Assembly: GCA_963931925.1 (NCBI GenBank)
Contig: OZ007580.1
Span: 6,902,947-6,966,946 of the forward strand
Origin: Onchidella celtica
Lineage: Eukaryota; Mollusca; Gastropoda; Systellommatophora; Onchidiidae
Length of the DNA stretch: 64,000 bases
Direction of reading: 5' to 3'
The notes beneath the pieces are model-generated. The model worked only from the letters and a program-made list of their open reading frames with translations, made no database searches and was not told the origin of the DNA. Position 1 is the stretch's first letter. Each line of letters opens with the position of its first letter. Below, piece by piece: positions 1,191-64,000 of the stretch. The translations under genes and the position numbers were made by a program.

Positions 1191-3315
1191 AGATCTATAT
1201 ACAAAGTTACACTGATGCAGAGAGAAAGGCCAGAAAAGAATACATAGAGAAAAAAACAACAACAACATTTTAACAGCTGAACTGGCAGATGGTGCAATTC
1301 CATCATCCAGCAAACATTAAATATTTCACACAAAACTAAATACATACTAAAATTGTTTCACATAATGAATTTAACCTGTCCATATCCACTTGAAACGTTA
1401 CAGAAAGCTAACCAGTAATATACAATAATAACAATAAGAACACCAAATCATCTTATTTACTCTTGAAAATAAAGAGAATATAATCAATATCAGAATCACC
1501 ATCATCTTGGAATAATACAAAGATAAGAGGGAATATAAAAATGACCTACACATCATTCTAGAATCTATAAGCAGCAATAATATATGTAATATATGTGCAA
1601 GTACATGTAAAAAATAATGTGTTAAATCTTTTCAACTATTCAAGTAGAACTGGACTGAAAGCTTTAGCGAAGTAGCTTTGATAGTCATGTAAAATGACAG
1701 ATTAAATCCACTGAGACAACAGTGCATTGCAGAAAGTAATTATAGTATGTTATGGCAAAAATTCGATGGATCATGTTGCATGAACATGTCTTGTTAGTAA
1801 TTCTTTGATAGCGTATTTGTAGAAATGTATACATTTTATGTAGCTCATGGTTTAAGGCACTGGATTAGTGTCACGCACGTTCGTTGGCATGTTGTAGTTG
1901 TTTTTGTAGTTGATTGCCATTGAGTAAAATTTGCACGGTACTGTTTGTTTGGCACTGACATACACATCCCAACGGATGAAATAATTAACGGACTCATAAA
2001 AATGAAGTCATTTTAAATATTTTTTTGAGTACAAATACACAGTTGTTAAATCCCTTGGCAAGGGACGTGTTAAGCTTAGGAAGGTAAAGACGGACAAGGT
2101 CTTTTCTTTTTTTTTTAAAATTTCATTTCACTCGCGAGTGACATTTCCTTACTCACTATAAGTTATAACACATAAGTTCAGTCTTTCAAATACCTTGCAA
2201 ACTAATCCAGTGTCTTAAACCGTAATGTACATGAAATGTATATCTTTCTACAAATAACCTATCAAAGAATGATACTCACTGACAAGAAATACTGTTAATG
2301 TAACATGATCCATCGAATTTTGCCTCAACATGCTATAGATCTAATTACCTTTTATAATGCACTACTTTTGTCTCAGTGGACTTCCTCTGTCGGCCTACAC
2401 AACTGTCAAGGCTATTTAGTATTTCACTAAAGCTTTCTGTCCAGTTCTACTTGAATATTTGAAAAGATTTAACACGTTTTTTATATATAGTTGATACACA
2501 TACATTGCTGCTTATAAATTTTAGAATGATTTGTAGGCATACGCTGCCATTTTTACACTCCCTCTCATATCTTTGCAATTTCCAAGATGATGATGATGAT
2601 TCTGATATTGATATTTCTCTATATTTTCAAGAGTAAATAACATGATTTCGTGTTCTTATTATCATTATTACTGGTTAGCATTCTGTAACGTTTCAAGTGG
2701 ATCTGGACAGGTGGAGTTCATCAGACGCAAACATTAAGTGCCTATTTAGTTTTATATCTGCTGGATGATGGAATTGCACTTTCTGTCAGTTGGATTATCA
2801 TTATTATTTTTTTCTGTGTTTTCTTTTCTGGCCTTTTCTCCCTACATCATTGTAACAAAAAATACAATGCATGTTTTACTCATGGCCAACTAACTATCAA
2901 AATAATAATAATAATAATAATATCCTCAACACTCACGAGTGCAATTAATGCTGAAGTCTAATCATGTCAGTTTGAATGGATACTCAACTCTTTTGTATAT
3001 CAATGCATTTTAAGGCATGTTTGTTCCTTCTAAAATGTATCATGATTTACAGGAGTCGAGAATGTAGGCCTATGTATGTACACCAAAGTAAACTAAGGCT
3101 GAAATAAACTGTTACTATTATTTTCTCTAAATTGCATTATGACTTGTTGGTGTCAAGAATGTGTTCATGTATGTCTTAATATGATATCTGGTGACAGTGA
3201 TGAAGAACAGACTGAAATAAACTGTGGTCTTGACTTGTTTTTAAAGAAAAAGCAGGGGGTATAATCTGGACTGGGGGGGGTATAGTCTGGCCTAGCCCAA
3301 AGTAACCCCGGGGTA

Positions 3316-4366: not shown

Positions 4367-7300
4367 GTAAATAAACATGGAAAGAATGAGAAATTGGGGG
4401 GGGGGGGGGCTAACCCCTCCCCCCCTTTTTGTCTTTAAGAAGATACTTAAATTCTTGTAGATTTGCCAGAAATTTAATGTGGGTAGTATTTAAAAATATA
4501 TACTGATGTGTATTTCCACCATTCTTTATTTCATGAGAAAAAATATTTAAGATATATATTGCTATAAGATAATAATTAAATAGTTCTTCACTTTTCATAA
4601 GAAACATTCTGCTAGAGATTTATTGTAATGGAGATGTTAATTAAACAGTTAAAAAAAACAAAAAAAAAAACTACTAATATTTTGCTTTTGTAATATTATA
4701 AGTATCGTATGAAAGAAGGTACTTGGGAATGAGACAGTGAAAGGGTTAGAAGCAGAAAAAAGTTACGTCAGGAGAGCACTGGAGTATTTTCTTTTATCTT
4801 TGCCAGAGGTACAAACAAAAACAAGTTCACAAGGAAGTATGAAGGAAAGATTATTGCAATTATCATAATGAAGTCATTTTACCATAAAATATCATATTCC
4901 CAAAACAAGGATAGGCCTACTGTAATTATTGTGCCCTTGAATACTATTTATTCTGTTATCTCCCCTTAGTAAATGTTGTCACAAGTAAAATTATGCAGTT
5001 GTGTGCCCCTGGAGTGTTCATTAATTTTGTGGATGCTCAGCTTCACACCAATTAGCGTGTGACGGTACTTTGCATCTCTTGATTCTCTAAAACTACTGGT
5101 TACGATTAGTCCACCTTTGGCACAACACAGTAAGAAGTGTTTTCATCCATTTCGGTATGGCACAGGTCTTTGCAAAGAGCAGAAAACATTTCATCAGAAG
5201 TGTATTAAATTAGTCTAGATGACTTTGTTGTGCACGCATTAAAGTTGTAACTCATAAAGTGGCTTTGGATTTGGCACAGCTAGGACAACTCCTAGTACAT
5301 TGTCACAAATCCCAGACTGGGAGATGTAATAAGTTATGACAGGACAACAATCACGAACAAACAAGTTAACACTTAACAGAACAATCCATCAGACTCACAC
5401 ATTTATTAAACATAATTATACAGATAATAGCGCAATTACATCCATTATATTATTGAACTCAACTGCCGTACAACGGCCTTATTCTCACACACACTCTCCC
5501 TCGGATCCACAATCCGGTAGTTACTCCTAAAGGCACTTCGGCCTCAGCCTCTCCCCTCAGGGTCTTAATAGCACATTAATAATTTACTGGCACCGCAGTC
5601 TCTCAATATCACCTTCCTATTGTCATACACCTTAGCATTCCCCTAGCACCTCAGCAGGGCAATAACACATTATCATTTCAATAGACATTATCATTTCAAT
5701 AGTACATTCTCATTTCAATAGTACATTCGCCCCTCAACATGGCACTAGTGTATTATCACATTCACGCTCATATCTACGTCCCTGTCCGTGGCCTGACTGC
5801 CACGACTGTATGTGCCTCTACTGTCCTGCACTGACAGCCTCACTTCTGGCCTATGTGTGGCCTCCGGCCCTATGCTGGCCTATCCTCTGTGCTCATCGAG
5901 GTGGCTCTGCGGCCCGTCCTCGACACCAGTCATCACTGGCAAGACTCTCTCACTAGTCTTCTCGACTGCTCCCCTTATGTCCGCCCGATGGGCTCTTATT
6001 CACAGGTCTGTTCCGTAGGACCTTCTAACTTGCAGTGATAGTAATACAGCGCTTTCGCCTCATTCAGACCCTCCCACTACTCACAACAGCACGCTTAACT
6101 TACTTGTCTACTGTGAGCCCTTCTTACTCTACACCCGCTCTGTAGCAATCCCCTTAATTGCACTCACTCCACTCGTGACATACATTTATAGCACCATATT
6201 TTATGACGATAAAAATAAAACTCATAAAGTGGCTTTGGATTTGGCACAGCTAGGACAACTCCTAGTACATTTATAGCACCATATTTTATGACGATAAAAA
6301 TAAGGAAGAGGATGGGGCAACAACAAAAATTCAGACAAGATATACCATAATGATTGCAAATGACATGAGCAGGTAGGTAGAGGTAGGTAGGTAGGTAGGT
6401 ATGTATGTGTGTGTGTGTGTGTGTGTGTGTTTTCTTTTCTTTTTTTCTTTTTGATGACATTTAAAGAAATTGCTATAATATGTACTTTAATATTGTGCCA
6501 AAGCACACAGAATTTAGGGAAGGTAATCCCCATTTAATCTTTTTCAACAAACAAAATGGGGGAAAAAGAAGGGAGCAGAGAAACAGAGAGTATATGATTA
6601 GAACATAAAATACATCTGCATGTACTTTATATCAGTACATTGTATTATTTAATTTGAATTCTATTTGATTTAAAATCTGAATTTGTTACAGGTTGTCAAA
6701 GGCAACATATTAGAGGCCTCTGAGCTGATAGAGCCCATGAGAGGATGTGATGCAGTGATTTCAGCTGTTGGTGGTCGTGGTGGTTTGTTCACTCCATGTG
6801 ACGTTTACACCATAAATGGAGAAGCTGTAGTCAAGGCTATGCGGGAAACAGGAGTCACGAGATTTGTGACTGTGACAGCTTGGGGCACAAAAGGTGATAT
6901 ATGTAGGCCTACAAGATATAAACAGATTACATGTATAATAGCACGATCATTGTCTCACACTGTCCTTGTGTTCCTCTGTTTTTTTTTCCCCTTCAGATTA
7001 GATGTATCAGATTTGTAAGTCCTGTTTTTGAATAGGGGCTGACAGGGCATCAAGAGAACAAATGCATGCACAATATTTAATACACATATAAGTACAATCT
7101 GTAATAGTAAATTTTTGTCCAGTAACTGATTTTGACGGTCTGGTTTACATATTTGAGCCTACAGTGAAGACAATTGTGAAATGAAAGTGACTTGCGTGTG
7201 TGTATTTGTGTGTGTTTTCTTTTCTTTTTTTCTGACATTTAAAGACATTATTATAGGACGGCACACAGAATTTAGGGAAGGTAACTAGTTTCTGTCTGAT

Positions 7301-12046: not shown

Positions 12047-12191
12047 TACATGTATTTAATGTTTTCTGCTTGTCCTGTAGTTGATAAGAATGTTCACAGC
12101 AAATGTGTGATAGTGAGAGTGACAATCTCCTGAATGCATTTGAAATTGTACAGCCCAGCATTGCTATCAGTGGTGTATAAATTATGAAATA

Positions 12192-13460
12192 CAGTCGACA
12201 TTGCTTAAGATGATGTCCAGGAGACATAAAATTTAACATCTTACTATCCGTTAAATCATCTTAAGCATTATTAGGTTATCTACCTTAGATAAACTATGTT
12301 GATAAATGATGGAAGCAGTATTGTTATGTAGGTGACCTTTGGTTGTTTTTTTCTAAGGCGGGGGTATTTTTTGGGTGTAGGCCAACATGTATTAGGGTGT
12401 GTGAGGGGATATTGTTTTAAAAAAAAAAATATTCACCCAAAGCGATGGTGTCTGAACATATCTAAGGAAAATGTTCTGTTTCCATTATAACCAAAGGGCA
12501 AAAATTAGCACACAATATTACCTGTCAGTCGACTTAACATTATGTTGTTGTATGACTGTCAGCATGCAAGATACGCCAATCAAACAAACATAGCTTGCAT
12601 TTTCCAGTATTATTTATATAAATGTGAATATCATACAAGACCCTCCCGCTGGTCACACTCGCATCATGTAGTGCTGAGCCTAAACTAACACAATAAACAT
12701 CGCCCGTCTGCGGTGACCGAGTGAGCATGGTATTTGACACCTTCGTGGACTTGCTGGCGCCGACTGTCTTTGCTCCGTGTCCCGTGAAAACGATTGAATC
12801 TCTATTGTGTAGTTAAAAAAAAAAAAAGTTCAAAAATTGTGGCCACGCTTGTTACGGTACATCCACGTGGGTAAACCTTTGCCTTTTCTCTCTATCGTAA
12901 CCTCCGTTTTCAATGCCCGACCTGAGTAAAATCAGTGGCCCTATGAATTTTACAATATCTGATGCATCATTTACTATTATAATGCATTATTGATCCACCT
13001 GATGAATAACACATGGCAACATATTTGAGATTGCATGAGTGCGAGGGATCGGTGATGCCAGCAGAATAAAATTTGTAAAATCCTACACTCATGGACAAAG
13101 CGACCACATCCAGTCGTACGCATGGCGCCTTGGGCGCACGCTGGGTACATAACATAACAGGTGTAAACAAGGCGAGGCAGACAAAGAGCAATGGCAGGTA
13201 CGAGCTGTAGCGAAACGACGAATACGAAAGATGATGGCGTGTATTTTTACCATGACACGGTTAGGAAAATCATACTAAGGATTTTGTTTTCCTCTTTGGG
13301 ACTTCAAAATGAGATCACGCAAAGAGTAAAAACCGATAAAAAGATGTCATACTATGTGTTTTTTTCCCACGGAAATGAGGCATTGGGGAAGGGATAAAAG
13401 AAAAACATCATACAAAAAGAAGATCATTTTAAGCGACTTCATTTTAAGTGGAGTCGACTG
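12192..13460. mobile_element. Pogo-like non-autonomous element B, copy 1
   Basis: Flanked by TA, with ends CAGTCGAC and GTCGACTG; adjacent inner blocks GCTTAAGATGA and GCGACTTCATTTTAAG sit at opposite ends. It is related along its length, in reverse orientation, to 33122-34344; for example, the block at 13000-13200 pairs with 33360-33560. No intact transposase. Confidence 0.8.
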
Positions 13461-13872
13461 TACATGCATTCAAACCAAGATAAAATAATGTTTACAATGA
13501 CATCCCAAATGCCACATAAAAAAAATGATCTATGATTTATTTAATAAATTTTATTATGGCATCAAATCTATGCATTTGGATTAGTTATTCTTTGATCTGC
13601 CAAAGAAGGAATCACTGTATCTGAGAATTTTGCAAATTTGTCATGAATTTCTAATTCACTGCCACATTTTTACCACCTTTTTTAAAATACTTTTATATGG
13701 CCTGGAGAGTAGGATTCACTCATACTGCCTTTCATCAATACTTTTCCAAATTTTGTGTTGTCAGTTGTTGAAATATGAGCCATTTTTAGAAAAAATTGTT
13801 CACATTTGATTTGCAGTGCATACATACATGGAAATAATATATCCAATTCATGACACCTGGAATTGTATTACA

Positions 13873-25300: not shown

Positions 25301-28300
25301 GTTTTGTGACTTTTATTGGAAAGACTGGATAGGACACTTGCATTATAATCATTAACGAAATAAGAAGAAGAAAAAGAAAGTAGAAAGATTCAGAGGAGAA
25401 CACACACACATGTATTATGGACAATAATGGTTAATTGCAGCCTGAAGTACCGTAGAAAAAGAGACTGAAAAAAAAAAAAAGAACCACTGACCTGAGGTAA
25501 ATGTTTTATGGCCAGCCTATACTTGACTGACAATTTCAGTTTCAGGAATGGACCCTTTGGAAATTTTGGTTTTCAGGTTTCTGAACCTTCAGTTGCTTTC
25601 ACCCATGCTATTAATATTACTATACACGTGTAATATATTACCATATTGAAACCGTGAAAGGGCTCAGTACGTATGTTGCTGTCTGGGTCAGCCTAAACTT
25701 GTTAAGTCCAGTGGACGTAACAAGTTGTGGGAAAATGTTGGTCAAAATACTATGCAAGAACAAGTTAAAGATTTCTTTCAATACTTTGATAAATTAGCTT
25801 TGGTATCCTTTATCTTTATACTTAAAAGAGAATTCAATGCTGCTTTAATTTAGATGTTATTAAAAAAAAGTGCAAATATCACAAAATGACTCAAACGGAC
25901 TTACCCAGTTTTGGAAACAGTGAAACATTTCATTTGTGAAACAGTGTTAATGTTTTGTGAGACAACATTATGAATTGCACAGGTAATTGTGGTTGCATGA
26001 GAGGATGACATGGATGAAAATGAAATACTAGCCTTATGAATGCCCCAGTCTTATGTTTATGCAAATGACTGATTTGCAATTTGGAAACCTGAAATGTTTT
26101 ATCATTTTCATTTTCAGTTCTTTTCCATCAATGAAAGCCCAGTTTTTCTTCAGTTGAACCCCCAGGCAAGAACCTCAGATGTAAGTAATGCAATCTCATT
26201 TCTACCCTTAATTTCTTATTTTCATTCTCTTCCAAGTGGAGCTTGCTTCATGTGCAAATTAATTTTTTGCTCTTGTATTTGAGAACATTTTGACTCCATG
26301 AGAATAATGAGAGACACATCTGGTTTAGGGAAAAATGGAGGAGGCAGTAAGAGAGACAGAGACTTTCCTCTAGGTTCGTAGATTTGCTTTATAATCCAAG
26401 ACTGTTTTGTCTTACCTTCATAATTCCTGTGTGATTTTGTTCATCATAATGGAGTAATCTGTCACATGCATACAGTATTTCCTTGATGTCTCTGATCAGT
26501 GGTAAATCACAAACTTCACCTCAGAAATTTATTCATGTTAATTGCCCTTCCATGCTTTTATCAATAAAAGTTTGAACACATTCTCAAATGCAGTATCTGT
26601 ATCGTTTTGTTTTCATCTTCACAGCTGCCAATTTCCATGTTTGAGTCTGTGATTGATTTGATTAAAGGAGAGGTAAGTGTTTAGGTTTTTCTTACATCAG
26701 ATACAGTGCAATCCTAATATTATATCAACATCAGTGGGACAGTCTGAATTGTGTCGAGTAAAGAGAAAGTTGAAATAGCAGATTAGTGGTGGAAGAGAAA
26801 AAAGAAGGAGGGGGGATCAAACATCAACATTATGGGAAAAGTGTCCAATAATAATAACGCAATTTTGCCTCTTTTGCTTCTAATTATCGGCATACTCTTA
26901 CCCATTCCTCCAATATCATTGTTGTGTAGAGCAGTTGCATGGCAACCATTTGCCGATATCAGTGAGATGCGCAGTGTTTTGCTACTTCTTTTTAACATCG
27001 ACCTGTTTCTTCAGAAGAAGCGATGATACTGATACACATACAGTAAGGCAGTTAACCAAGAAATCTAGGTCAAGGCCTAGTATCAACCACGCATGAATGT
27101 TTTATGAAAAAAAAAAATACCCACAATCTGTAGTACTCTGTACTTTTACTGCTGTGCTCTCATGCATGGCACTCCATACTGACATTACTGAAACCAAGGG
27201 TCATCCCCTGTGTCCACACACCCCCTCCCCGCCAGCACCGCAAAAAGAAATAAAAAGGTCTTGTATATGAGGGGTTGCGTGGGCATTTTCGGAACCACAG
27301 TAGTAGATCTAGTGCACCTGTGCCCTGGTCGGGGAGAAATGTGTCAATTTAAGAAGTAAAAGTGGAACAACACGTCAAGTTACGGGGAAAGTATTTAGTA
27401 GCATTAAAGAAGGAACAGGTTGGGACTTAAAAATTGTGTTGAGTTACCCAGAATGTCGACAAAAGCCATGTCGAGATAAGTTGGTTGGACTGTATATCAG
27501 ACACTGTTGACACTTTTCATAACAAATGTAGTCAGTGACAATAAAAATAACTTAAATGGTAGGTCATTAACTTACTGTGTAATAATCTTCCTTAAACCGC
27601 CCGTGCAGATGCGGGGCCCTCTTGCAGAAGAGGGACAGCAAAGAATACATCTGACGTGATACTGCGTGTCGTAAGAGGCGACTAAAGGTGCAAAGGTCCT
27701 GGTCTCCCGAGAAGAGCCAGTTGGCGGTGGGCCAACTACCCACCCTGTAAAAATAAACCAGTTACAGAAACACAAGCAAATACTTTAAGTCAGTCTTTTA
27801 TCTTGGGAGAAGGGGGAGCATCTGCACCTGTAGATTCAATGAAGGACAATGGACAAAGCCGAAAGGACTCCACTGGCCCGACTGCTCCCTCATCAAACAA
27901 GTCACTCCGGATTGCGTCGTGGAATGTCCGCTCCATGTATGAAGCAGGAAAGAGTGCCCAGGTTACAATGGAGATGAGGCGATACAGACTGCACATACTT
28001 GGAGTTAGCAAGACCCGCTGGATACAGTCCGGACTGAAACAACTTAATTCTGGGGAAAAGATTTTGTATTCTGGAAGGGAGGACAAAAAGCATACAGAAG
28101 GAGTAGCGATCATCTTGAGCAAGCACGCCCAGAGGTCACTGAGGGGATGGGAACCCTACGGAAGGAGAATTATATTGGCATCATTTACTACAAAGAACAA
28201 GAACATCAACATGAACATTGTGCAGATATACGCCCCAACAAACGAAGCAACCGATGAGGACAAGGACGATTTCTACAACCAGCTTCAGGAAATAGTTGAC

Positions 28301-31300
28301 ACATTGCCAAGAAAAGATGTGAACATTATAATGGGAGACGCCAATGCCAAGATAGGACAGGACAATACAGGGTATGAAGACATTATGGGGCGCAATGGTT
28401 TGGGACAAATGAATGATAATGGAGAGCGGTTTGCAAGTTTCTGCGTATTTAACAGCTATGTGATTGGAGGTTCAGTATTCCCACACAAGAGGATCCATAA
28501 GGCCACTTGGATTTCACCGGATGGAGTAACTGAAAACCAGATTGACCACTTTTGCATCACCCGACGATTCAGACGCTCACTGGAGGATGTCATAGTACAG
28601 AGAGGAGCTGATGTTGGATCTGACCATCACATGCTGCTGGCAAGACTCAAACTCCGCCTCAAGAAACAAGGTACCAGAGCAGGAACAAAGAGGAGAAAGT
28701 TTCAAGTGAGCCTTCTGGATGGAGACAAGAAGGAAGAGTTCCAGCTGACACTGAGGAATAGATTCAAACCCCTTGTTGACCTCGAAGAGACAGTAGATTT
28801 GGAGACTCACTGGACTAAGGTAAAAGGAGTATTTACATTGACATGTCAGGATGTTCTTGGGGAAAAGAAAGTGGAACACAAGGAATGGATCAGTCAAAAA
28901 TCACTGGACTTGATAAGGATAAGAAGAGACCTAAAAGAACAGGTAAATGCAAGTCGTACAAGAAGCTCAAGAGTTGGTAACCAGGAAGAGTACCGAGCAT
29001 CAGCTAAAGAGGTCAAAAAATCAATTAAAAAAGACAAAGAGGAGTTCATAGGAATGTTAGCAGAGAAAGCAGAGAAGGCAGCAACAGGAGGACACATGAG
29101 GATCCTCTACCAGACTACAAAGACTCTTGCTGGAAAATATGGAAAACCTGAAGTTCCTGTCAAGGATTACAACAGGAAGGCTATTTTTGGAAAGGAAGCT
29201 CAGGCAAAAAGATGGATAGAACATTTTAACAGCCTCTTGAACAGACCTCCACCAAGCAACCCACCCGACATTCTACCCGCAAGAAATGATTTACCGATCA
29301 GTTGCGACCCTCCGACTAAAGCAGAGATTAATGATGCCATAAAGCAGTTAAACCGAGGCAAGGCAGCTGGACCAGACCAGATCCCACCAGAGGCGCTGAA
29401 GGCAGATGCTGCTGGGGCTGCAGAGGGTCTGCACTCACTATTCTCGAGGATTTGGATCGGAGGCAAGTTTCCAAAGGACTGGAAGGAAGGACACCTCGTG
29501 AAGCTTCCAAAAAAAGGGGACCTCAGCAATTGTAGTAACTACAGAGGAATCACACTTCTCTCCATCCCAGGAAAGGTTTTCAATCGCATTATTCTCAAGC
29601 GAATACAGAATGCAACAGACCCAAAACTTCGTGAGGAGCAAGCTGGTTTCAGGAGTAATCGATCAACCACCGACCAGATCGCCACGCTGAGAATCATAGT
29701 AGAGCAGTCGCTAGAGTGGAACTCCGAACTGATAGTGAACTTCCTTGACTACGAGAAGGCCTTTGATAGCATCGATAGAGAAACACTGTGGAGAATATTG
29801 AGACATTATGGAATCCCAGAGAAGATGGTGAATCTTATCAAGAGCATGTACGAGGGGACAAGTTGCAGAGTCGTACACGATGGTGAGCTTACTGACAGCT
29901 TTGATATCAAGACTGGTGTTAGGCAGGGTTGTTTGCTGTCCCCATTTCTGTTTATTCTGGTGATTGATTGGCTTATGAAAGAAACCACCAGTGGAGGAAG
30001 AAATGGCATACAATGGACCCCATGGACACAGTTGGACGATCTAGATTTTGCAGATGACTTGGCACTATTGTCGCACACGCACGACCAGATGCAAGCAAAG
30101 ACTACAGCTCTAAACAAAATTTCAGAATCTATTGGATTGAGGATACATCCTGCGAAGTCGAAGGTCCTAAAAATTGTTGCACCCCCAAGCGAACAAGTCA
30201 GAGTAGGAGATCAACCACTGGAAGATGTAGAGTCCTTCTGCTATCTTGGTAGTATCATTGACAATAAGGGAGGAACAGAGGCAGAAGTCAAAGCACGAAT
30301 TGGAAAGGCACAGGCAGCTTTCACGTCCTTAAGCAAGATTTGGAGAACCAAGGATATATCTCTAAAAACAAAGCTGAGGATATTCAACTCGAACGTGAAG
30401 TCAGTCCTGTTGTATGGATGTGAGACTTGGAATGCGTCCCAGGCCTGCATAAAGAGAATCCAAGTTTTCACCAACAGATGTTTGAGGAAGCTACTTAAGA
30501 TCAGATGGACAGACAAGGTCAGCAATGAAATTGTATGGAAAAGAACAAGACAGAGCCCAGTCAGAGAGGAAATTGGTAGGAGGCGATGGAGATGGATCGG
30601 CCACACTCTCAGGAGGCCAGGAAACAGCATCACGAAGAAGGTATTGGATTGGAATCCCCAGGGCAAGAGATCAAGAGGAAGGCCGCGCGGAACGTGGAGA
30701 AGAGCCAGAGAAAATGATGTGCAACGAAGGGGAAAGACTTGGAATAATGTAAAGAGGCTGGCCCATGATAGAGAGGGATGGAAAGTGTTTGTTGGTGGCC
30801 TATACCCTGATCCAGGGTGAGAAAGGCAATGATGATGATGATGACCCAGAATGTCGACAAAAGCCATGTCGAGATAAGTTGGTTGGACTGTATATCAGAC
30901 ACTGTTGATTTGATTAGAGGGTGTTAATTTCAGTATATATATTGAGAAATTTCAGTAAAATAAGTTAGGGTTTTTTTTCATTGATTCCAGTTTCAGTGAT
31001 AAATGAAGAGAAAGAGGTGCTTAGAACTTTTAAAGTTGTCATTAATATCAGTTTCAGCTGGGTGTCTGCTCCTCATTTTAAACAAGGTCATGCTGATTAT
31101 CATAATTTTAGAACAGTAGGCTTATGTGTTGTTCTTGTTGTTACTTGGTCAGGACTCTAGAGAAATATATGTAGATGTTCAAGTCTTTATAATTTACAAA
31201 TTCTCAGTGAATGGGGAATGTATGTGTGTGTTTTTTTCTTTGTTTTGTTAAAGGTATTTCACCAGTAGTTTCATGAACATTACAAACGTTTTTGTACCTC

Positions 31301-34300
31301 CTCCCGTTTCAGGCTACAGTATTGTTTGTGGACATTCCATATACTTTAGCTACAGAGGAAGCAGAAAGAATCGGGGTTGACCATGTTGCACGGCTGTCAA
31401 CAGCAGATACTGGTGATTCCTCTACAGGTTTGTGCATTTACTTACTTTAATAATACTGGATATTGAGGCAAATGCAGTTTGGGGATTGAAATGTATTTTT
31501 TTTAAAATGTTGAATTTAGTGCTGAAGTCAGAAAGAAAAACAATAGTAGGAGAAGTTGATAAGACACAAGGTTAAAGACTATTAATACTGTGACTCTTTT
31601 CTTTCCACTTCAAAGAATATGTATGGTTGTGTACTAAGCCTTTAGAAAGCTAGCAATTATTATATGATGACAGTAAATTCATTAGTGCTGCCTATTTGCA
31701 ATTTGGCATTTGGACCCATTTGACTCTTGTCCAGGATAGTGATACCTACACGACAAAAAGTGGAAGCATCAATAACATGCTACAAAATGTGATTAAATCT
31801 CTCCCAACAACCTCAGTCGTCATTTACGCAGATCTAAAACGTTCTGTTAGATCTAAAACATTTTGGATCATATGTATAGTAGTTAGTTTTACTGCAAAGT
31901 TTGTGAGGTATGGCCCGATCATTGATTCCTATATACTGATCAGTGCAGCTTGTGTTTCCATGCACCATTGCAAATAATATAACCCTATCATAACTATTAG
32001 TTAATATGTTTTGTTGAATTGTCTTTTCAAATAAGTACATTATGTGTTGTGTGTTTAAGTCCTCTGGCTTGAGAAGTGTGGGTTCATCGCGGCATAACCT
32101 AGAAAAGGATTGAACACTTGTTTCTTTTCCTTTTTTTTTCCAGCTGAACACCTAGTTGCACAACATAGCTCTATTAAAATGCTGCATAATCGCATCAAGA
32201 TCATCTTGGCATATATTCGAGCTGCTCAAAAGGGTAAGCACAGAGATTCATATTTTAAATCTCATTATTTAGAAATTGATGTGGGTAATCCATTCATATC
32301 ATCCACATCAGTTTTTCTGTAAATTATCAAATGTTGTATACTAAGCTATGCATTGTACAGTGACTGCATTGTATAAATTGAGTACAGTTGTATGTATCAT
32401 TGAGTAGATGAAAGTAATGAGAAAACTCTGAATCATTGTGCCTAATAGTTACATATAATTTGTGACATAATTACATTAGTATGATGAAGAAATCAGATGT
32501 TGTGTCCATGAACTTAATGCTGACACCTTTAGAGGACATGAATTGTGAAGAATGATAGAATCTTAACTTTGGCCTGGTCAGACAAGTAATTATTTGGCCT
32601 TGATATACCATGTTATGTATTATGTTTAGGCCTTAAGTCATTTGATTTAGAGACAGGGTGATTGGAAATATTGAGAAGAGTAAATGATATGAACATTGCA
32701 GAACAGGAAATTCTTAATTTCTGATGAGCTGTTTGAACAGAGAGGTCTATAAATACTTGCTTTATAATTATAACAGGTGAAGTTGCAAAAAATCATGACA
32801 TTCTGAGAGAGGCCTACAGTTTGTGTTATAGGTTGCCAGTTCTGAGTTCTCAAAGGTTTAAGGAAGATTATTACACAGTAAGTTAATGACCTACCATTTA
32901 AGTTATTTTTATTGTCACTGACTACATTTGTTATGAAAAGAATTAGCAATATCTTGGTACAGTCCAGTCCACTTATCTCGACATTCTGGGTAACTCAACA
33001 CAATTTTTAAGTCCCAACCCATTCCTTCTTTAATGCTACTAAATACTTTCCCCGTAACTCGACATGTCGTTCCATTTTTTCCACATAAATCGACACATTT
33101 CTCCCCGACCAAAGCACAATACAGTCGACTCCACTTAAAATGAAGTCGCTTAATGTGATCTTCTTTTTGAATGATGTATTTCTTTTATCCCTTCCCCAAT
33201 GCCTCATTTCCGTGGGAAAAAAACGCTTAGTATGACATCTTTCTATCCGTTTTTACTCATTGCATGATCTCATTTTGAAGTCCCAAAGAGGAAAAAAAAT
33301 GCCTAGTACGATTTTCCTAAACCGTGTCATGATCAAAATACATGCCGTCATCTTTCGTATTCGTCGTTTCGCAACAGCTCATACTGCCATTGTTCTGTTT
33401 GCCTCGCCATGCTGACACCTGTTATGTCACCTACCCAGCATGCGCCCGAGGCGCCATACGTACGACTGGATGTGGTCGCTTTGACCATGAGTGTAGGATT
33501 TTACAAATTTTTTTCTGCTGGCATCACTGATCCCTCGCATTCAAGCAAGCTCAAATATGTTGCCATGTTTTATTCATCAGGTGGATCCATAATGCAGTGT
33601 AATAGTTAATGATACATCAGATGTCGTAAGATTCACAAGGCCACTGATTTTACTCAGGTCAGGCATTGAGAGCGGAGGTTACGATAGGGAGAAAGAGCAA
33701 AGGGTTACCCACGTGGAGCTACCGTAACACGCGTTTACTTTTTAAAAAAACAACTATGCAATAGAGATTCAATCGTTTTCACGGGACACGGAGCAAAGAC
33801 AGTCGGCGCTAGCAAATCCACGAAGGTGTCAGATACGATGCTCACTCGGTCACCACAGATGGGCGATGTTTATTGTGTTAGTTTAGGCTCAGCGCTACAT
33901 TATGCGAGTGTGGCCAAAGGGAGGGTCTTGTATGATATTCACATTTAAATAATGTAGGAAAATGCAAGCTATGATTGTTTGGTTGGTGTATCTTGCATGC
34001 TGACAGTCATCTAACAACATAATATTAAGTTAACTGACAGGTAATACTGTGTGCTAATTTTTGCCCTTTGGTTCAGACACCATCGCTTTGGGTGAATATT
34101 TTTTTTAAAAACAATATCCCCTAAACACACCCTAATACAGGTAGGCCTACACACAAACAATACCCCCCCCCCCCCCCCCCAGAAAAAAACAACCATAGGT
34201 CACCTACATAACAATACTGCTTCCATCCTTTGTCAACATAGTTTATTTAAGATAGATAATTCAATAAATGCTTAAGATGATTTAGCGGATAGTATGATGT

Positions 34301-35846
34301 TAAATTTTATGTTCCCTGGACATCATCTTAAGCAATTTCCACTGTAACTTGAATAAGTGCATTAGATCTACTACTGTCTCCCCGCGTATAAGACCCCTTT
34401 ATTTCTTTTTGTGGTGCTGACAGGAAGGGGCAGGAGGGGGGGTGTATGGACACAGATGATGACTCTTGGCTTCAGTAACAGGAGTGTGGAGTGCCATGCG
34501 CAAGCGCACGGCAGTAAAAGTACAGAGTACTATAGACTGAGTAAATTTTTTTTTTACAAAACCTTCGTGTGCCGTTGATACTAGGCCTTGACCTATATCT
34601 CTTGGTTAACTGCCGCACTGTGTATGTATCGGTGTCATCACTTCTTCTGAAGAAACAGTCAGGTCGAGGTTAAAAAGAAATAGTAAAACACTGCGCATTT
34701 GATGTATAGCAACAGCATTTCGCTGATGTCGGCAAATTTTTGCCACACAACAATGATATTGGAGGAACGGGTGACAGTATGCCGATAATTAAAAGAAAAA
34801 GGGACATAATTGCATTATTTATTGGACACTTTTCCCATAATGGTGATGTTTGATCTGCCTTCCTTTTTTTCTTCTCTTCCACCACTGTTCTGCTATTTCG
34901 ACTTTCTCTTATTCAACACAAGTCAAGCGGTCCCACTGATGTCGAGATATTTGGATTGCACTGTATATGGCTGTCGTAAGCTTATCTGTTTGTAACTTGC
35001 CAACTCATTATTGGAATTGATTATTACATTAATAGTTCATAATTCTTAAATTTAATGAAAAACAACAACATAAAGATTGCCACATTTGTTTATAGACTAT
35101 TTTAACTGACTTTGCGGAAATATAATAAATAGTCCAGATGTAAGTTTATACCAACCCAAGAATTCATTATCAGTAGTTACCGCAGAAGTTAAATTACATG
35201 TGAAAACTTTTTTCCCTGTCAGCAATGCAACGATGTCTGTCTGATGGCCTATTTAGGAGCAATGACAAAGGGATGCAACACAATGAATCAGGTAAATTCA
35301 GTTTGCTTTGTCTTATGAAATATGAGCATCATGAGAGATCGTGTAACCTGTTGTAGTTGTTGAGATTTATTACAATTTTATTCTTTTCACAGATGCAGGT
35401 GACAAGAAAAACTAGTAACACTTATAATCTAGAAATTTTTGCTGCAGACACCATGATTTTATATTTGGGATATTATATTTAGCTTTGTTCATAATTGTAG
35501 CCATTCATTTACAGTCTTTGTGGTTATTGCTACCCTTGATAATGTGTAAAGTACACATTTTTAAAACTTGTTTTTCATGTCCTGAATTATGTTGTTTTTT
35601 TTTTTTTTTGCCAAGCATTTTTCTGTCTTAAACTATTTAGAATACATATGAAATATAAATAAATTTATTGGCGTTGATGCTATATAATATCTGATTGTCA
35701 TTTTCATTTTGAACAGAGGCACTAGTGTAATCTCAGCATCTGAATGCATTATAAATGTTTTTTTTCTTTCTCCTCAGTTTTTGAACAAGTTCAATGTGCT
35801 ATATGACAAAGGAATGGGACGAAGGATGAGAGGGCTTTTCTTCTGA
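19144..35846 (+). CDS. COPS6: COP9 signalosome complex subunit 6 (CSN6), complete gene
   Basis: Ten exons (19144-19300, 20804-20935, 21637-21725, 26118-26180, 26625-26672, 31313-31427, 32144-32233, 32777-32877, 35223-35291, 35778-35846) join in frame to 310 codons; human CSN6 is about 327. The order is a short acidic N-terminus with MEVD, an MPN domain from about residue 24 ([14 protein letters not shown], then [18 protein letters not shown]), and a C-terminal helical region ending [20 protein letters not shown]. As in other CSN6 proteins the JAMM zinc ligands are absent, so it is a structural MPN-minus partner of CSN5 in the cullin-deneddylating COP9 signalosome. Introns 1, 3, 5 and 8 carry transposons; intron 5 carries an intact LINE. 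Splice sites are all canonical. Confidence 0.95.
19457..19640. repeat. AGATCT-rich simple repeats
   Basis: Two clusters of overlapping TCTAGATC units (19467-19512 and 19620-19636) in COPS6 intron 1. Confidence 0.7.
19643..20573. mobile_element. TIR element in COPS6 intron 1, superfamily unknown
   Basis: The left end reads GGGAGGACTTCCGAATGCGT and the right end is its near-complement (ending GGAAGTCCTTCCC), about 26 bases with two or three differences. No transposase frame. A target duplication is not clear; TATA occurs near both ends. Confidence 0.65.
20804..20935 (+). CDS. COPS6: COPS6 exon 2
   Basis: Residues 53-96: [19 protein letters not shown] then a less conserved stretch and YYNLKEGQ. 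Acceptor TTCCTTAG, donor CAAT|GTAAGT. Confidence 0.94.
21136..21183 (+). repeat. Dispersed ~47-bp module, copy 2
   Basis: GTGGCTGTTATTATGCCCAT followed by CACCGTAAA and AACTCAAAC; related to the modules at 3506 and 54121. Lies in COPS6 intron 2. Confidence 0.5.
21637..21725 (+). CDS. COPS6: COPS6 exon 3
   Basis: Residues 97-126, including [19 protein letters not shown] and ending IHKQ. Acceptor GATTTCAG, donor AAACAG|GTTTGT. Confidence 0.94.
21726..23752. other. COPS6 intron 3, left part
   Basis: No exon and no clearly delimited transposon recognised. AT-rich with scattered short repeats. Confidence 0.4.
23753..24493 (+). mobile_element. piggyBac-like MITE, copy 3 (best preserved ends)
   Basis: Flanked by TTAA. 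The terminal repeats are CCCTCACCCTGTGTG and, at the right, CGCACAGGGTGAGAG. TTAA duplication and CCCT...AGGG-type termini are the piggyBac signature. Nearly identical to copy 1 over the shared body. No transposase. Confidence 0.88.
24494..26117. other. COPS6 intron 3, right part
   Basis: No additional exon or clear element recognised. Contains short A-rich and AC-rich tracts. Confidence 0.4.
26118..26180 (+). CDS. COPS6: COPS6 exon 4
   Basis: 21 codons, [20 protein letters not shown] plus D, the same length as the corresponding human segment. Acceptor TTTTCAG, donor TCAGAT|GTAAGT. Confidence 0.93.
26625..26672 (+). CDS. COPS6: COPS6 exon 5
   Basis: 16 codons, [16 protein letters not shown]. 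Acceptor CTTCACAG, donor GGAGAG|GTAAGTG. Confidence 0.93.
26704..27492 (-). mobile_element. Pogo-like non-autonomous element C, left copy
   Basis: Flanked by TA, ends CAGTGCAATCC and GGTTGGACTG. It aligns in inverted orientation with the outer element at 32960-34963, minus the nested insertion there: 26770-27080 pairs with 34590-34880, and 27330-27470 pairs with 32975-33110. Lies in COPS6 intron 5. Confidence 0.78.
27446..27510 (+). repeat. LINE 1 target-site duplication, left
   Basis: 65 bases identical to 30844-30908. It covers the right end of pogo-like element C and 18 bases beyond it. Confidence 0.88.
27513..27598 (-). repeat. COPS6: Templated filler: inverted copy of the COPS6 exon 8 donor region
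   Basis: 86 bases, by eye without a mismatch, reverse complementary to 32855-32940. The source holds the last 23 coding bases of exon 8, the GTAAGT donor and 61 further intron bases. It sits exactly between the left target duplication and the LINE 5' end and is absent at the LINE 3' side. Confidence 0.85.
27599..30843 (+). mobile_element. LINE 1, RTE-like non-LTR retrotransposon, full ORF
   Basis: A short 5' UTR (27599-27838), a single ORF and a (GAT)n 3' tail (30829-30843), flanked by 65-bp direct repeats (27446-27510 and 30844-30908). Length (~3.2 kb), single ORF, very short 3' UTR and simple-repeat tail are RTE-clade traits; clade assignment is by recall, not by a tree. Confidence 0.85.
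27839..30820 (+). CDS. LINE 1 ORF: apurinic endonuclease plus reverse transcriptase
   Basis: An uninterrupted frame of about 993 codons from the first ATG (27839); the frame is open from at least 27803. The N-terminal ~250 residues form an exonuclease-endonuclease-phosphatase domain: [39 protein letters not shown], and SDHHML at the end. After a basic linker, reverse transcriptase follows with [43 protein letters not shown] and the catalytic [10 protein letters not shown]. The C-terminal region has [13 protein letters not shown] and GRPRGTWRR. The endonuclease resembles CFDP2-type proteins derived from RTE elements. The enzyme nicks target DNA and copies its own RNA there. No stop or frameshift is seen, so it may be recent or active. 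Confidence 0.92.
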   Translation: MKDNGQSRKDSTGPTAPSSNKSLRIASWNVRSMYEAGKSAQVTMEMRRYRLHILGVSKTRWIQSGLKQLNSGEKILYSGREDKKHTEGVAIILSKHAQRSLRGWEPYGRRIILASFTTKNKNINMNIVQIYAPTNEATDEDKDDFYNQLQEIVDTLPRKDVNIIMGDANAKIGQDNTGYEDIMGRNGLGQMNDNGERFASFCVFNSYVIGGSVFPHKRIHKATWISPDGVTENQIDHFCITRRFRRSLEDVIVQRGADVGSDHHMLLARLKLRLKKQGTRAGTKRRKFQVSLLDGDKKEEFQLTLRNRFKPLVDLEETVDLETHWTKVKGVFTLTCQDVLGEKKVEHKEWISQKSLDLIRIRRDLKEQVNASRTRSSRVGNQEEYRASAKEVKKSIKKDKEEFIGMLAEKAEKAATGGHMRILYQTTKTLAGKYGKPEVPVKDYNRKAIFGKEAQAKRWIEHFNSLLNRPPPSNPPDILPARNDLPISCDPPTKAEINDAIKQLNRGKAAGPDQIPPEALKADAAGAAEGLHSLFSRIWIGGKFPKDWKEGHLVKLPKKGDLSNCSNYRGITLLSIPGKVFNRIILKRIQNATDPKLREEQAGFRSNRSTTDQIATLRIIVEQSLEWNSELIVNFLDYEKAFDSIDRETLWRILRHYGIPEKMVNLIKSMYEGTSCRVVHDGELTDSFDIKTGVRQGCLLSPFLFILVIDWLMKETTSGGRNGIQWTPWTQLDDLDFADDLALLSHTHDQMQAKTTALNKISESIGLRIHPAKSKVLKIVAPPSEQVRVGDQPLEDVESFCYLGSIIDNKGGTEAEVKARIGKAQAAFTSLSKIWRTKDISLKTKLRIFNSNVKSVLLYGCETWNASQACIKRIQVFTNRCLRKLLKIRWTDKVSNEIVWKRTRQSPVREEIGRRRWRWIGHTLRRPGNSITKKVLDWNPQGKRSRGRPRGTWRRARENDVQRRGKTWNNVKRLAHDREGWKVFVGGLYPDPG
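30844..30908 (+). repeat. LINE 1 target-site duplication, right
   Basis: Identical to 27446-27510 and immediately follows the (GAT)n tail. Confidence 0.88.
30909..31312. other. COPS6 intron 5, right remainder
   Basis: Ordinary intron sequence to the acceptor at 31312; no feature recognised. Confidence 0.4.
31313..31427 (+). CDS. COPS6: COPS6 exon 6
   Basis: Residues 164-201, with the family hallmark [19 protein letters not shown]. Acceptor CGTTTCAG, donor TCTACAG|GTTTGT. Confidence 0.95.
32144..32233 (+). CDS. COPS6: COPS6 exon 7
   Basis: Residues 202-231, including [19 protein letters not shown]. Acceptor TTCCAG, donor AAAAGG|GTAAGC. Confidence 0.95.
32777..32877 (+). CDS. COPS6: COPS6 exon 8
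   Basis: Residues 232-265, including [20 protein letters not shown]. Donor TTACACA|GTAAGT. The last 23 bases of this exon plus 63 bases of intron recur inverted at 27513-27598. Confidence 0.95.
32960..34963 (+). mobile_element. Pogo-like element C, right copy, carrying a nested element B
   Basis: Flanked by TA, ends CAGTCCAGTCC and GGATTGCACTG, with ATCTCGACA and TGTCGAGAT just inside. Without the insertion at 33122-34344 it is about 780 bases, matching the left copy (789 bases) in inverted orientation. Lies in COPS6 intron 8. Confidence 0.8.
33122..34344. mobile_element. Pogo-like element B, copy 2, nested
   Basis: TA-flanked (33120-33121, 34345-34346), ends CAGTCGACTCC and TTTCCACTG. Inverted relative to the copy at 12192-13460 and clearly related throughout. 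Contains a C tract at 34164-34180. Confidence 0.82.
35223..35291 (+). CDS. COPS6: COPS6 exon 9
   Basis: 23 codons with [17 protein letters not shown] then CNTMNQ. Acceptor CTGTCAG, donor AATCAG|GTAAAT. Confidence 0.95.
35778..35846 (+). CDS. COPS6: COPS6 exon 10
   Basis: Final 22 codons, [19 protein letters not shown] then LFF and TGA at 35844-35846. Acceptor CTCCTCAG. Confidence 0.95.
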   Translation, partial: FLNKFNVLYDKGMGRRMRGLFF

Positions 35847-41224: not shown

Positions 41225-44200
41225 CTGTTGAATAAAATGCAAAGAAAAAAAAAAAAAAAGATCAGATGCAGGACAAAAAATTTGACTCTATCCATGTGTG
41301 ACACTGACAATTCAAAATTTAAAGTTTTCAGATAATAATAGAAACATAATGCAAATGTAACCATTTCTTACTGGTCAAACTCACATGTGCCAGCAACTAT
41401 TTAATTGTGCCCCCCCCCCCCCCCCCTTCCCCATTCCGATAGTTTTGTGTTGTAGATATTGTATGATAATCATATGATAAGATAATCTAGCTGCAGGCTG
41501 ACAAATCAGTTGATGATTTCGATATCAGCCAATGAACTGGATGTCATTGTCTAGAAATATTTCAAAGTGCTACAAATAATACATGACATGCTTAACACAA
41601 TCAAAAGTGAGGACTACTACATAATAGATTGTTTATCTTCACAAATTCAAATAAATATAGATCTATATGTATTGTCGAGAAACATACCATGCACAATCTG
41701 CAAAGGATGCTTTTCTCCTCCGTGTGCCAACATTGACTCCCTGTAGCGAGACCCCATCGCTCTATTCAGAAGAAAAATTCATGAGTAAGCCAAATGATAC
41801 ATGATGTCCCAGGAAAAAGTGTGCTCATTTACCTCCTTTATCATTCATTCAATTCTTACATTCCCCTCTTTTTTTTTTCCAGGGGGTTAATTTTCAAATT
41901 GAAAGCTTGAGTCCTTGTGCTGATTAATTCAAACAAATTTGATATTCTACTATTTCTTAGTCTCATTTACAAACAGCAAGCCTGTCTATCAAAAAACGCA
42001 AATCTAAATGCCTATCAGCTTCAGAAAATTGTGTTGAAAATGTTCGAAATATTGAGTGTGTCTTTCAACTTTTCTTTCTTAATCACAGAAGACAATAAAA
42101 GTTAATTTCAAACCCATTAAATGGGTCGGTCTTGCTCAAGGTATAGGGCATGTCTTTCAACTCTTGCTGGTCAAAAAGAAAGACTTGTTTCAAACCTGTT
42201 AAATGGGCCAGCCTTGCTCAGGGTATTTTGCATGTCTTTTTAACTTTCTCCTAGTCAAAAAGGAAGATAATTTTCAAACCTGTTAAATGGGTCAGCCTTG
42301 AAGCATGTATGCCATACTTGTGCTGCTACTGCTCGGGATACCAGATAGGCATAGTACCTTGCACCATAACCAACTAGGTGACTAAACCGCAGTTGCCAGG
42401 CCTGATAAGTTAGAGATGGAAGGACAACAAATGAATACACAGGTAACTATTCAAGATCCTAAACTTTCACACTATTATTAGCCAACCATGAGAGAATATA
42501 CATGGAACACCTGTTTTCTTTGTGACTATAAGAAAATATTCTCACACCACATGCAAGAGGTAAACTCAGCAATAAAAAGGTAATCAAAGTGTTACCAAAG
42601 CTTACTAATTCAAATGAATACACAGGTAACTATTCAAGATCCTAAACTTTCACACTATTATTAGCCAACCATGAGAGAATATACATGGAACACATGTTTT
42701 CTTTGTGACTATAAGAAAATATTCTCACACCACATGCAAGAGGTAAACTCAGCAATAAAAAGGTAATCAAAGTGTTACCAAAGCTTACTAATTTAAATCT
42801 CAAATCTCTAATGATCATCACATAAAAAACCCTCCTTCATATTATCTCTTGGATTATTTTCAACTAGGCCTACAGACAGTTTTGACTGCAATAGGATGAT
42901 GTATACAAATTCTAAAAAGATATATACAATGGAGTCCGTGTAAACCGAACTTTGGTAATTCGAATTTCTGTTAAATTGAGGTGATTTTGAAATGAGTTTT
43001 TTTTGCCTTGTTTATCTTTATTAAACATTTACACTGCTAATTAATTGTTCATGCCTTGACGTGGAGGAGTGGCTTGCGTGTCCCAGTGATCCCAGGAGCT
43101 AAGCCAGCGGAGGCCTCGTGCCCCTGATAGCTTTAAGCAAGCTGGACAGGTCATGGGGGAAGGACCAGACAAGATTGAACAGACCGGCCCTCCAGGTTCG
43201 GGGGTTGGGCGTAGGGCTAACAACCCTACCCTGAAATCCTTGTTGGGGTGACCTTACTTGGAGAAACAAAAATCGTTACGGAAACAGCAACATGGAAAAA
43301 CCAACGTTCTGGATGTGATGGACCTTCTGAGTACCTCGCGACTCGTATGAATGCAAGTAGTGAAAGCCGAAAGGAAACTGCTAGCAGGATGAAGGAGGAA
43401 CTGAACACCGCCAAAACCAAGACCAGGATTGGATACTGGAATGTTAGAACAATGTATGAATCGGGTAAGTTAGCACAAGTAACATCAGAGATGAGGCGCT
43501 ACAACCTACACATCCTGGGTGTAAGTGAGAGCAGATGGACTGGATCTGGAAGGATCAAAACATCCACTGGAGAAACCGTTCTCTACTCTGGAAGAGAGGA
43601 TGACCAACATCATGAAGGAGTAGCCATCATCCTAAAGAAAGGACTGGACAAATGCTTGTTGGAGTGGAAACCAGTCAATAGCAGGCTGATGAGGATGAGG
43701 ATGAAAGGACGACACACAAACATCACTGTCATCCAATGTTATGCACCAACCAACGAAAACGACAACACAGACAAAGACGACTTTTATGAACAACTCCAGG
43801 GGGAAATGGACATGACGCCACGGCATGATCTCATCATTGTCATGGGAGACCTCAATGCTAAGGTAGGTAAAGATGATATAAATTATGAAAGAGTAATGGG
43901 AAAACATGGAACTGGAACAAGGAATGACAATGGAGAAAGGCTTGTGGATTTTTGTGCCTTGAACAACTTAGTCATCGGAGGGACCCTTTTCACACACAGA
44001 GAAATTCACAAACTCACATGGAATTCTCCAAATGGAAGAGACAAGAACCAAATAGACCATTTGATGATCAACGGTATGTGGAGACGATCCCTTCTAGATG
44101 TGAAAGTGAAAAGAGGAGCTGACGTAGCCAGCGACCACCATCTAGTGGCAGCACTTATCAAAATTAAACTGAACAAGACCGGAATCAAGACATCAAAGCA

Positions 44201-56987: not shown

Positions 56988-57437
56988 TAACCTCTTTGAC
57001 CCCATAGTGACGTACCTGGTACGTCACCAAATTGTGCAATTTTTGCCGGTGTGCCGTACCAAGTACGTCACGGAAATTGCGATACTCTGGGTTCCCCAAT
57101 ACCATGTAGACGTACCAGGTACAGCATACTAAAACTGCTCTACAAATGCTTTGTATTCAAAGCTATGGGCGAGTACGGGCGAAATTCTGAATCAACATTG
57201 AATTTTACCCATACTCGATTCCAGTTTTTGGAAATTTCTTTATTGCTAGAGCTCCATCAGAGCAAATAATCTTCGGTCAGTTGTGTTCCTCTCATCACTG
57301 TCGATTTGATCATAACTTTCTGACCTTGTATATTGCTTGAGATGAAAAAAAAACATGGCATATTTAGAAACTACATTCAATTTCCTTTCAGAAAATGTAT
57401 ACTTTTGTGGGGATAACTGTACAAATAAACTGATCAC
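56988..57437. mobile_element. piggyBac-type transposon end, interrupted by the LTR element
   Basis: TTAA followed by CCTCTTTGACCCCATAGTG, then a 10-bp palindrome GTGACGTACC/GGTACGTCAC (57007-57027) and a second GTACGTCAC block. TTAA plus a T(T/G)GACCCC end is piggyBac-like. The other end is not seen before the LTR element begins. Confidence 0.45.
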
Positions 57438-58630
57438 TGTCACAAATCCCAGACTGGGAGATGTAATAAGTTATGACAGGACAACAATCACGAACAAACA
57501 AGTTTAACACTTAACAGAACAATCCATCAGACTCACACATTTATTAAACATAATTATACAGATAATAGCGCAATTACATACATTATATTATTGAAATCAA
57601 CTGCCGTACAACGGCCTTATTCTCACACACACGCTCCCTCGGATCCACAATCCGGTAGTTACCCCTAAAGGCACTTCGGCCTCAGCCTCTCCCCTCAGGG
57701 TCTTAATAGCACATATGTTTCACAAACATTAACCTCTTAGGTGGCACCGCAGTCTCTCAATATCACCGTCCTATTGTCATACACCTTAGCATTCCCCTAG
57801 CACCTCAGCAGGGCAATAACACATTATCATTTCAATAGACATCATTTCAATAGTACATTCTCCCCTCAACATGGCAATAGTGCATTATCACATTCACGCT
57901 CATATCTACGTCCCTGTCCGTGGCCTGACTGCCACGACTTTAGGTGCCTCTACTGTCCTGCACTGACAGCCTCACTTCTGGCCTATGTGTGGCCTCCGGC
58001 CCTATGCTGGCCTATCCCCTGTGCTCATCGAGGTGGCTCTGCGGCCCGTCCTCGACACCTACAAGAATAACATTACATTGGTATAATACCCTACCATTTC
58101 TATTCACTCCACCTCTCCTTACAACCCATGAAGCGTACACACACTAGTTCACCTTTCACTCACCACACATCTTACGGTAACACACCTCCATCGGAGTACA
58201 CACTACTCACTCGCGCTACAAATCCATGAACTCACTTTCATCTATCGCTCATGGCGCACATTGCTATATCCAATATCAAGGACTTCCACATTCCTCACAT
58301 CTACTTATTTACATCATGGTAATAGACGAATATAATATAATACACCAATCATAATAATCAATCAACGTTCTACATACCAGTCATCACTGGAAAGACTCTC
58401 TCACTAGTCTTCTCGACTGCTCCCCTTATGTCCGCCCGATGGGCTCTTATTCACAGGTCCGTTCCGTAGGACCTTCTAACTTGCAGTGATAGTAATACAG
58501 CGCTTTCGCCTCATTCAGACCCTCCCACTACTCACAACAGCACGCTTAACTTACTTGTCTACGTGCGTTAATTTTACTCTACACCCGCTCTGTAGCAATC
58601 CCCTTAATTGCACTCACTCCACTCGTGACA
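57438..58630 (-). repeat. 3' LTR (1193 bp)
   Basis: TGTCAC...GTGACA. It carries a ~319-bp segment (58059-58377) absent from the solo LTR at 5301, and a 26-bp patch (57713-57738) copied from the outer flank at 56971-56996. Confidence 0.93.
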
Positions 58631-63278: not shown

Positions 63279-63291
63279 GGACGAGCCCCCA
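63279..63291 (-). other. Primer binding site (tRNA-Pro type)
   Basis: On the minus strand TGGGGGCTCGTCC lies one base after the 5' LTR end. It matches the first 13 positions of the tRNA-Pro primer site used by murine leukaemia virus. Confidence 0.8.
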
Positions 63292-63292
63292 G

Positions 63293-64000
63293 TGTCACAA
63301 ATCCCAGACTGGGAGATGTAATAAGTTATGACAGGACAACAATCACGAACAAACAAGTTTAACACTTAACAGAACAATCCATCAGACTCACACATTTATT
63401 AAACATAATTATACAGATAATAGCGCAATTACATACATTATATTATTGAAATCAACTGCCGTACAACGGCCTTATTCTCACACACACGCCCCCTCGGATC
63501 CACAATCCGGTAGTTACTCCTAAAGGCACTTCGGCCTCAGCCTCTCCCCTCAGGGTCTTAATAGCACATTAATAATTTACTGGCACCGCAGTCTCTCAAT
63601 ATCACCGTCCTATTGTCATACACCTTAGCATTCCCCTAGCACCTCAGCAGGGCAATAACACATTATCATTTCAATAGACATCATTTCAATAGTACATTCT
63701 CCCCTCAACATGGCAATAGTGCATTATCACATTCACGCTCATATCTACGTCCCTGTCCGTGGCCTGACTGCCACGACTTTAGGTGCCTCTACTGTCCTGC
63801 ACTGACAGCCTCACTTCTGGCCTATGTGTGGCCTCCGGCCCTATGCTGGCCTATCCCCTGTGCTCATCGAGGTGGCTCTGCGGCCCGTCCTCGACACCTA
63901 CAAGAATAACATTACATTGGTATAATACCCTACCATTTCTATTCACTCCACCTCTCCTTACAACCCATGAAGCGTACACACACTAGTTCACCTTTCACTC
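63293..64000 (-). repeat. 5' LTR, cut by window end
   Basis: Nearly identical to the corresponding 700 bases of the 3' LTR, but keeps the unpatched ACATTAATAATTTACTGG at 63566-63583, as in the solo LTR. Confidence 0.92.

Follow-up and report, generated by a model that had tools for sequence, protein, structure and literature searches.

An inverted COPS6 segment at the 5′ junction of a LINE insertion in Onchidella celtica: an unusual junction with its template next to an inverted transposon

Introduction

The second half of the integration of long interspersed nuclear elements (LINEs) is poorly understood (PMC6895275). Among the closest systems described, twin priming is known from LINE-1, and "dual priming", with a second mRNA used on the top-strand end, was also proposed (PMC2837659). 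Chimeras of mammalian LINE-1 with antisense RNA parts have been interpreted as products of twin priming (PMC13174262), and R1 and R2 were reported to show top-strand cleavage off the preferred site as well as untemplated added bases (PMC2718515). Here we describe a LINE located in an intron of the COPS6 gene, within a stretch of 64,000 nucleotides of the mollusc Onchidella celtica (contig OZ007580.1, positions 6,902,947 to 6,966,946; hereafter the window, whose own numbering is used), where an 86-nt filler between the left target duplication and the LINE is an inverted copy of an exon end of the same gene. The locus was read from the assembly sequence alone, and genome searches covered the 1.14-Gb assembly of 43 contigs.

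The target of the LINE is one end of a dispersed transposable element, here named TE X, and an inverted copy of TE X lies beside the sequence from which the filler was copied. We consider, with moderate confidence, that the target end annealed to the inverted TE X end, copied 86 nt of the COPS6 coding strand and was then end joined. The locus represents an unusual LINE 5′ junction, a single event and a new variant of known junction chemistry.

The junction and its filler

As claimed in the original prediction, which was made from the letters of the window, the LINE is bracketed by identical 65-mers at 27446-27510 and 30844-30908 (65/65), and alignment of the tract 27513-27598 with the reverse complement of 32855-32940 is exact (86/86). 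The features of the locus are as follows:

26702..27494, + strand: left copy of TE X, a ~800-bp dispersed element with terminal inverted repeats (TIR) and TA at both ends, the LINE's target (genome search, copy comparison)
27446..27510, + strand: left 65-bp target duplication, made up of 49 nt from the end of TE X and 16 nt of unique flank (sequence comparison)
27511..27512, + strand: the dinucleotide CA, which agrees in register with neither target nor donor (junction alignment)
27513..27598, - strand: 86-nt filler, exact reverse complement of 32855-32940 (sequence comparison, genome search)
27598..30843, + strand: full-length LINE with an open frame at 27686-30820 and an (ATG)n 3′ end (domain and family comparison)
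30844..30908, + strand: right copy of the 65-bp target duplication (sequence comparison)
32855..32940, + strand: filler template, the last 23 nt of a COPS6 exon, the splice donor and 63 nt of intron (exon search, alignment)
32958..32991, + strand: site at which the left 65-mer is predicted to anneal by its 3′ end; inner end of the right, inverted copy of TE X (duplex scan, -30.1 kcal/mol)
32958..34965, - strand: right copy of TE X, inverted, within a COPS6 intron and interrupted by a nested repeat at ~33119-34386 (copy comparison)

The filler is the longest exact inverted repeat of the window, the runner-up having 57 nt, and a genome search with 27495-27598, which scores candidates only, gave two places, the LINE junction and COPS6. 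The host gene was identified through a 33-residue peptide of the exon 32779-32877, which matches COP9 signalosome subunit 6 (E 9.4e-9). This exon is followed by GTAAGT, and since the splice donor puts the exon end at 32877, the filler consists of 23 exonic and 63 intronic nucleotides, so that the earlier statement that it derives from COPS6 and includes intron holds. Its template is situated ~2.0 kb from the insertion if the length of the LINE is excluded.

At the switch points, 0 shared nucleotides and the two additional bases CA were found at one end, and 1 shared nucleotide at the other. Microhomology in end joining or template switching would call for at least 2 nt at such points, and the microhomology-mediated repair proposed in the original prediction therefore does not agree with the junction. 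The 0 differences in 151 nt (65 + 86) limit the divergence since the event to less than ~2% (95% bound).

Such a junction, unique in the assembly and known from it alone, could also be produced by an assembly or library chimera. However, a chimera would not be expected to break off exactly where the LINE truly begins, close to the register of an inverted copy of TE X and opposite a long exact duplication, and we consider it very unlikely.

The LINE and its family

The LINE carries a reverse transcriptase domain (RVT_1, 5.6e-35) and an endonuclease match (Exo_endo_phos, 8.3e-5) whose 22.9 bits fall slightly below the 24.5-bit cut-off. Its start was placed at 27598 because the other full-length copies begin with CGCCCGTGCAG; this position is at the same time the first LINE base and the last filler base, giving a 1-nt overlap. 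Two family searches scored the best 40 of 1425 and the best 40 of 1955 candidates, and in the second of them at least 39 other places were 99-100% identical along 3214 to 3246 query nucleotides. Judging by these identities, the family and this insertion are young, in line with the recent insertion with a templated inverted filler proposed earlier, and the youth of the family makes a genome-wide survey of junctions feasible.

Junctions were compared in 58 other copies, chosen by LINE identity with flanks ignored (29 of the 39 others in one set of matches and, from the 39 others in the second set, the 29 not already included). All 55 copies with a resolved junction have a duplication of 10-15 bp and 0-4 extra nucleotides. 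Automatic comparison resolved 50 of the 58, 47 of them with a 10-14-bp duplication located at the LINE end or at most 4 nt before it. The program mis-scored L020 and L130, with one mismatch each, and L134, which is ambiguous within a GATA repeat, and by eye these have duplications of ~12 bp; duplications of 11-15 bp were likewise recognised by eye in L027, L096, L098, L106 and L144. Three of the 58 (L013, L018 and L024) gave no resolved junction, the 3′ tail not being recognised in L024. In L013 and L018 the 5′ ends are intact, and similarity to the LINE ends at 1963 and 1406 nt, respectively. The copies L096, L098 and L106 start ~28 nt inside the usual 5′ end, and may reflect a second transcript start. 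In addition, the 3′ flank of L023 resembles 27306-27400 of the window by eye, so this copy apparently also resides in TE X-like sequence.

Against this background, the LINE of the window has a target duplication and an (ATG)n end, and is the sole outlier, with a 65-bp duplication and 88 extra nucleotides (2 + 86, shared base counted once). The target duplication recognised in the original prediction is hence real and 65 bp long, but it is not an ordinary one for a family that makes 10-15 bp. The filler was also found to be specific to this copy, as had been expected, and its being a part of the LINE is ruled out by the 0-4 extra nucleotides in the 55 resolved copies of 58 and by the presence of the tract at two places in the genome. 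A 5′ transduction from a LINE formerly residing in the COPS6 exon is rejected, since no LINE is present there in the assembly and the tract adjoins no other LINE copy found.

The extra 53 nt of the duplication have the sequence of the right-hand copy. This would suit a history in two events, where an ordinary insertion with a ~12-bp duplication was followed by a later break at its 5′ junction, repaired first with 53 nt from the flank of the right-hand duplication and then with 86 nt of COPS6 through a switch at TE X. Although 65 bp as 12 + 53 agrees with the usual duplication length of the family, this history needs a second break precisely at the junction of a young insertion, and no such repair was seen in the 55 resolved copies of 58; we find it quite improbable.

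The two TE X copies

The original prediction missed that the 65-mer is mostly TE X end, and that only 17 bp separate the template from a second, inverted TE X copy. Like DNA transposons of the TIR type, TE X is dispersed in many copies whose ends are constant, with inverted terminal repeats and a TA at either end (genome search with the best 40 of 2045 candidates scored), and it presumably belongs to a Tigger/pogo-like superfamily. The inverted copy occupies 34965..32958, and inverted similarity to the left side thus extends far beyond the 86 bp of the filler. Most of the ~1.2-kb repeat that splits this copy (33120-34346) is found again, inverted and 86% identical, at 12190-13462.

Because inverted similarity spans most of 26702-27598, the filler could be thought to belong to an old inverted duplication of COPS6 into which the LINE inserted later. 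However, an alignment of the two TE X copies has 611 identities in 704 positions (86.8%, gaps omitted). They are no closer to each other than to 19 further members of the family, namely those that match the left copy best, and to these the left one is 85.7-88.7% and the right one 86.9-89.9% identical. For this reason the filler, at 100%, is not a part of an old inverted duplication, and the two TE X copies are old independent insertions. The chance of an 86/86 match at 13% divergence is ~6e-6, so the filler was copied far later. Furthermore, the right-hand duplication ends before the filler, and we find such an old duplication hardly credible. Copying of the left 65-mer from the TE X copy in COPS6 is ruled out as well, as the 65-mer retains 15 nt absent from that copy.

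The positions at the two TE X ends correspond: the template starts 17 bp beyond the right TE X end, and the filler starts 18 nt beyond the left one. As a separate observation, the inverted TE X pair, together with the 86-bp perfect inverted repeat, flanks at least three COPS6 exons and could favour exon skipping or circular RNA.

Pairing of the target end

A scan for duplexes was performed in 120-nt windows with 40-nt steps over both strands of the whole 64 kb. After its own complements, the best partner of the 65-mer in the window is the inverted TE X end (-30.1 kcal/mol), where ~34 nt pair imperfectly and adjoin the template, and elsewhere in the window pairing reaches -24.7 kcal/mol or weaker, apart from the opposite end of the right TE X copy discussed below. 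If single-stranded, as target-primed reverse transcription would leave the top strand once the second strand has been cut, the 3′ end of the 65-mer would pair with the COPS6 coding strand at ~32958-32991. Orientation and direction of copying are those required by extension of a top-strand end. In the tail that follows the TE X end, 8 of 12 bases agree with the donor flank in register, a level reached by 0.5% of the 12-mers of the window, with the register having been picked post hoc.

The same product would also result from a first-strand route, close to the one in the original prediction. On this route the LINE cDNA would have switched with its 3′ end to COPS6 DNA, or to an antisense RNA, and copied 86 nt in the direction of TE X before being joined to the target end, and the proximity of TE X would be incidental or helpful only in the final joining. 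Flanking DNA has been reported as the template for extra 5′ nucleotides of zebrafish LINEs (PMC4760211, PMC4245944). Yet the cDNA would have only 1 nt in common with COPS6 where it would anneal, the 17/18-nt offsets from the TE X ends would be left to chance and the 65-nt end would have no use, and this makes the route unlikely in our view. A first-strand jump onto the sense pre-mRNA is excluded by the orientation of the filler.

Other features of the window

Part of a COPS6 exon upstream of the insertion presumably occupies 26622..26672 on the + strand, with GTAAGT after it, and other presumed COPS6 exons are located at 31331, 32143, 35223 and 35778. A second, diverged LINE-like stretch at 43426-44125 has 64-68% identity to 27909-28614. 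Three copies of another repeat, in direct orientation to each other (5298-5927, 57435-58161 and 63290-64000), are 91-97% identical.

Discussion

A young full-length LINE entered the TE X end within the COPS6 intron. In regard to the mechanism that could lead to its junction, we propose that, with first-strand synthesis done, the cut top strand carried a 3′ end of 65 nt. An end of this length could result from displaced cleavage, or the usual end of ~12 nt could first have been extended by ~53 nt on the right-hand fragment, and the product would be the same. The TE X part of this end would then pair with the complementary end of the inverted copy inside COPS6, leaving the 16-nt tail roughly in register with the donor flank. 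The end would be extended away from TE X into the exon, by two wrong bases and then 86 correct ones. Finally, the extended end would leave its template and be joined to the LINE cDNA through an overlap of at most 1 nt, followed by second-strand synthesis. In form, this would be twin or dual priming with COPS6 as the template instead of LINE RNA.

Several points weigh against this proposal. The family norm of 10-15 bp means that a 65-nt end needs an additional assumption, and the 16-nt tail between the TE X end and the filler pairs poorly, so that a polymerase would have to extend a mismatched end. The opposite end of the right TE X copy pairs with the 65-mer nearly equally (-27.6 kcal/mol), and of the 40 places scored for it in the genome, 37 lie elsewhere and match it better than the COPS6 copy does (89-98% over 49-63 nt). 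Proximity or a transcript, and not the quality of the match, must therefore explain the choice of the COPS6 copy. In addition, there is one event only, and its enzyme and intermediate are putative.

The nature of the template is a related question. The original prediction, whose interpretation is partly supported, held that a jump to pre-mRNA would give a sense filler; this is correct for a first-strand jump, but it does not apply to top-strand priming. Likewise, its conclusion that a filler in antisense orientation must come from genomic DNA or from antisense RNA fails if the top-strand end primes, since the template is then the coding strand, also carried by ordinary sense pre-mRNA. Filler orientation by itself cannot distinguish a DNA from an RNA template. 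Pre-mRNA could have served because the LINE is itself located in a COPS6 intron and the copied tract is unspliced, and with an unspliced tract DNA and pre-mRNA templates look alike; both coding-strand DNA and nascent unspliced COPS6 pre-mRNA are hence possible. By reasoning only, resection of the right-hand end would remove the coding strand, which mildly favours RNA or the invasion of an intact duplex. The narrower proposal, that the LINE machinery primed the broken 3′ end of the target on the nascent pre-mRNA of the gene it had entered, held in place by complementary inverted transposon ends, is a tentative one that we regard as somewhat doubtful.

The value of this footprint is that it links a primer, a pairing site and a copied tract within one readable locus. 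As a consequence of the event, an upstream intron now carries 86 nt that are perfectly complementary to the end of a COPS6 exon with its splice donor, with a computed RNA duplex of -136.7 kcal/mol. Such a complement, placed between inverted transposon copies with at least three exons flanked, could hinder splicing or favour exon circularisation, both of which are predictions. If the narrower proposal on pre-mRNA is true, pre-existing inverted repeats in transcribed introns would steer errors at LINE junctions and write antisense copies of exons into introns.

Among the matches listed in a literature search, no report dealt with priming of a target end, via transposon ends, on the transcript of the host gene itself, which does not prove that none exists. 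Among the described systems, twin and dual priming (PMC2837659) have in common with the mechanism proposed here a top-strand target end that primes and an inverted 5′ segment enclosed within the target duplication; here too, an inverted segment stands between the 5′ duplication and the LINE in the orientation that fits top-strand priming. In contrast, their template is LINE RNA of the same or a second molecule, while here it is the sequence of a host gene next to an inverted transposon. This LINE is also full-length, and its duplication has 65 bp. As the inverted segment is COPS6 and not LINE, the junction works like twin priming without being a strict member of that class.

Likewise, the antisense RNA/LINE-1 chimeras (PMC13174262) carry non-LINE antisense sequence at their 5′ side, some of it derived from mRNA. 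However, they belong to mammalian L1 and involve 5S, tRNA and mRNA parts, and in the sections available no case with the unspliced transcript of the entered gene was noticed. Zebrafish LINEs (PMC4760211, PMC4245944) share with this locus templated extra bases at the 5′ junction that come from nearby sequence, but there the LINE end anneals to the genomic end, whereas here the template is ~2 kb off, inverted and beside a transposon end. Foldback insertions at double-strand breaks in yeast (PMC11724301) also combine an inverted templated insert with an end-joined other end, yet they are mostly ~5-34 bp long, use microhomology beside the break and involve no retrotransposon.

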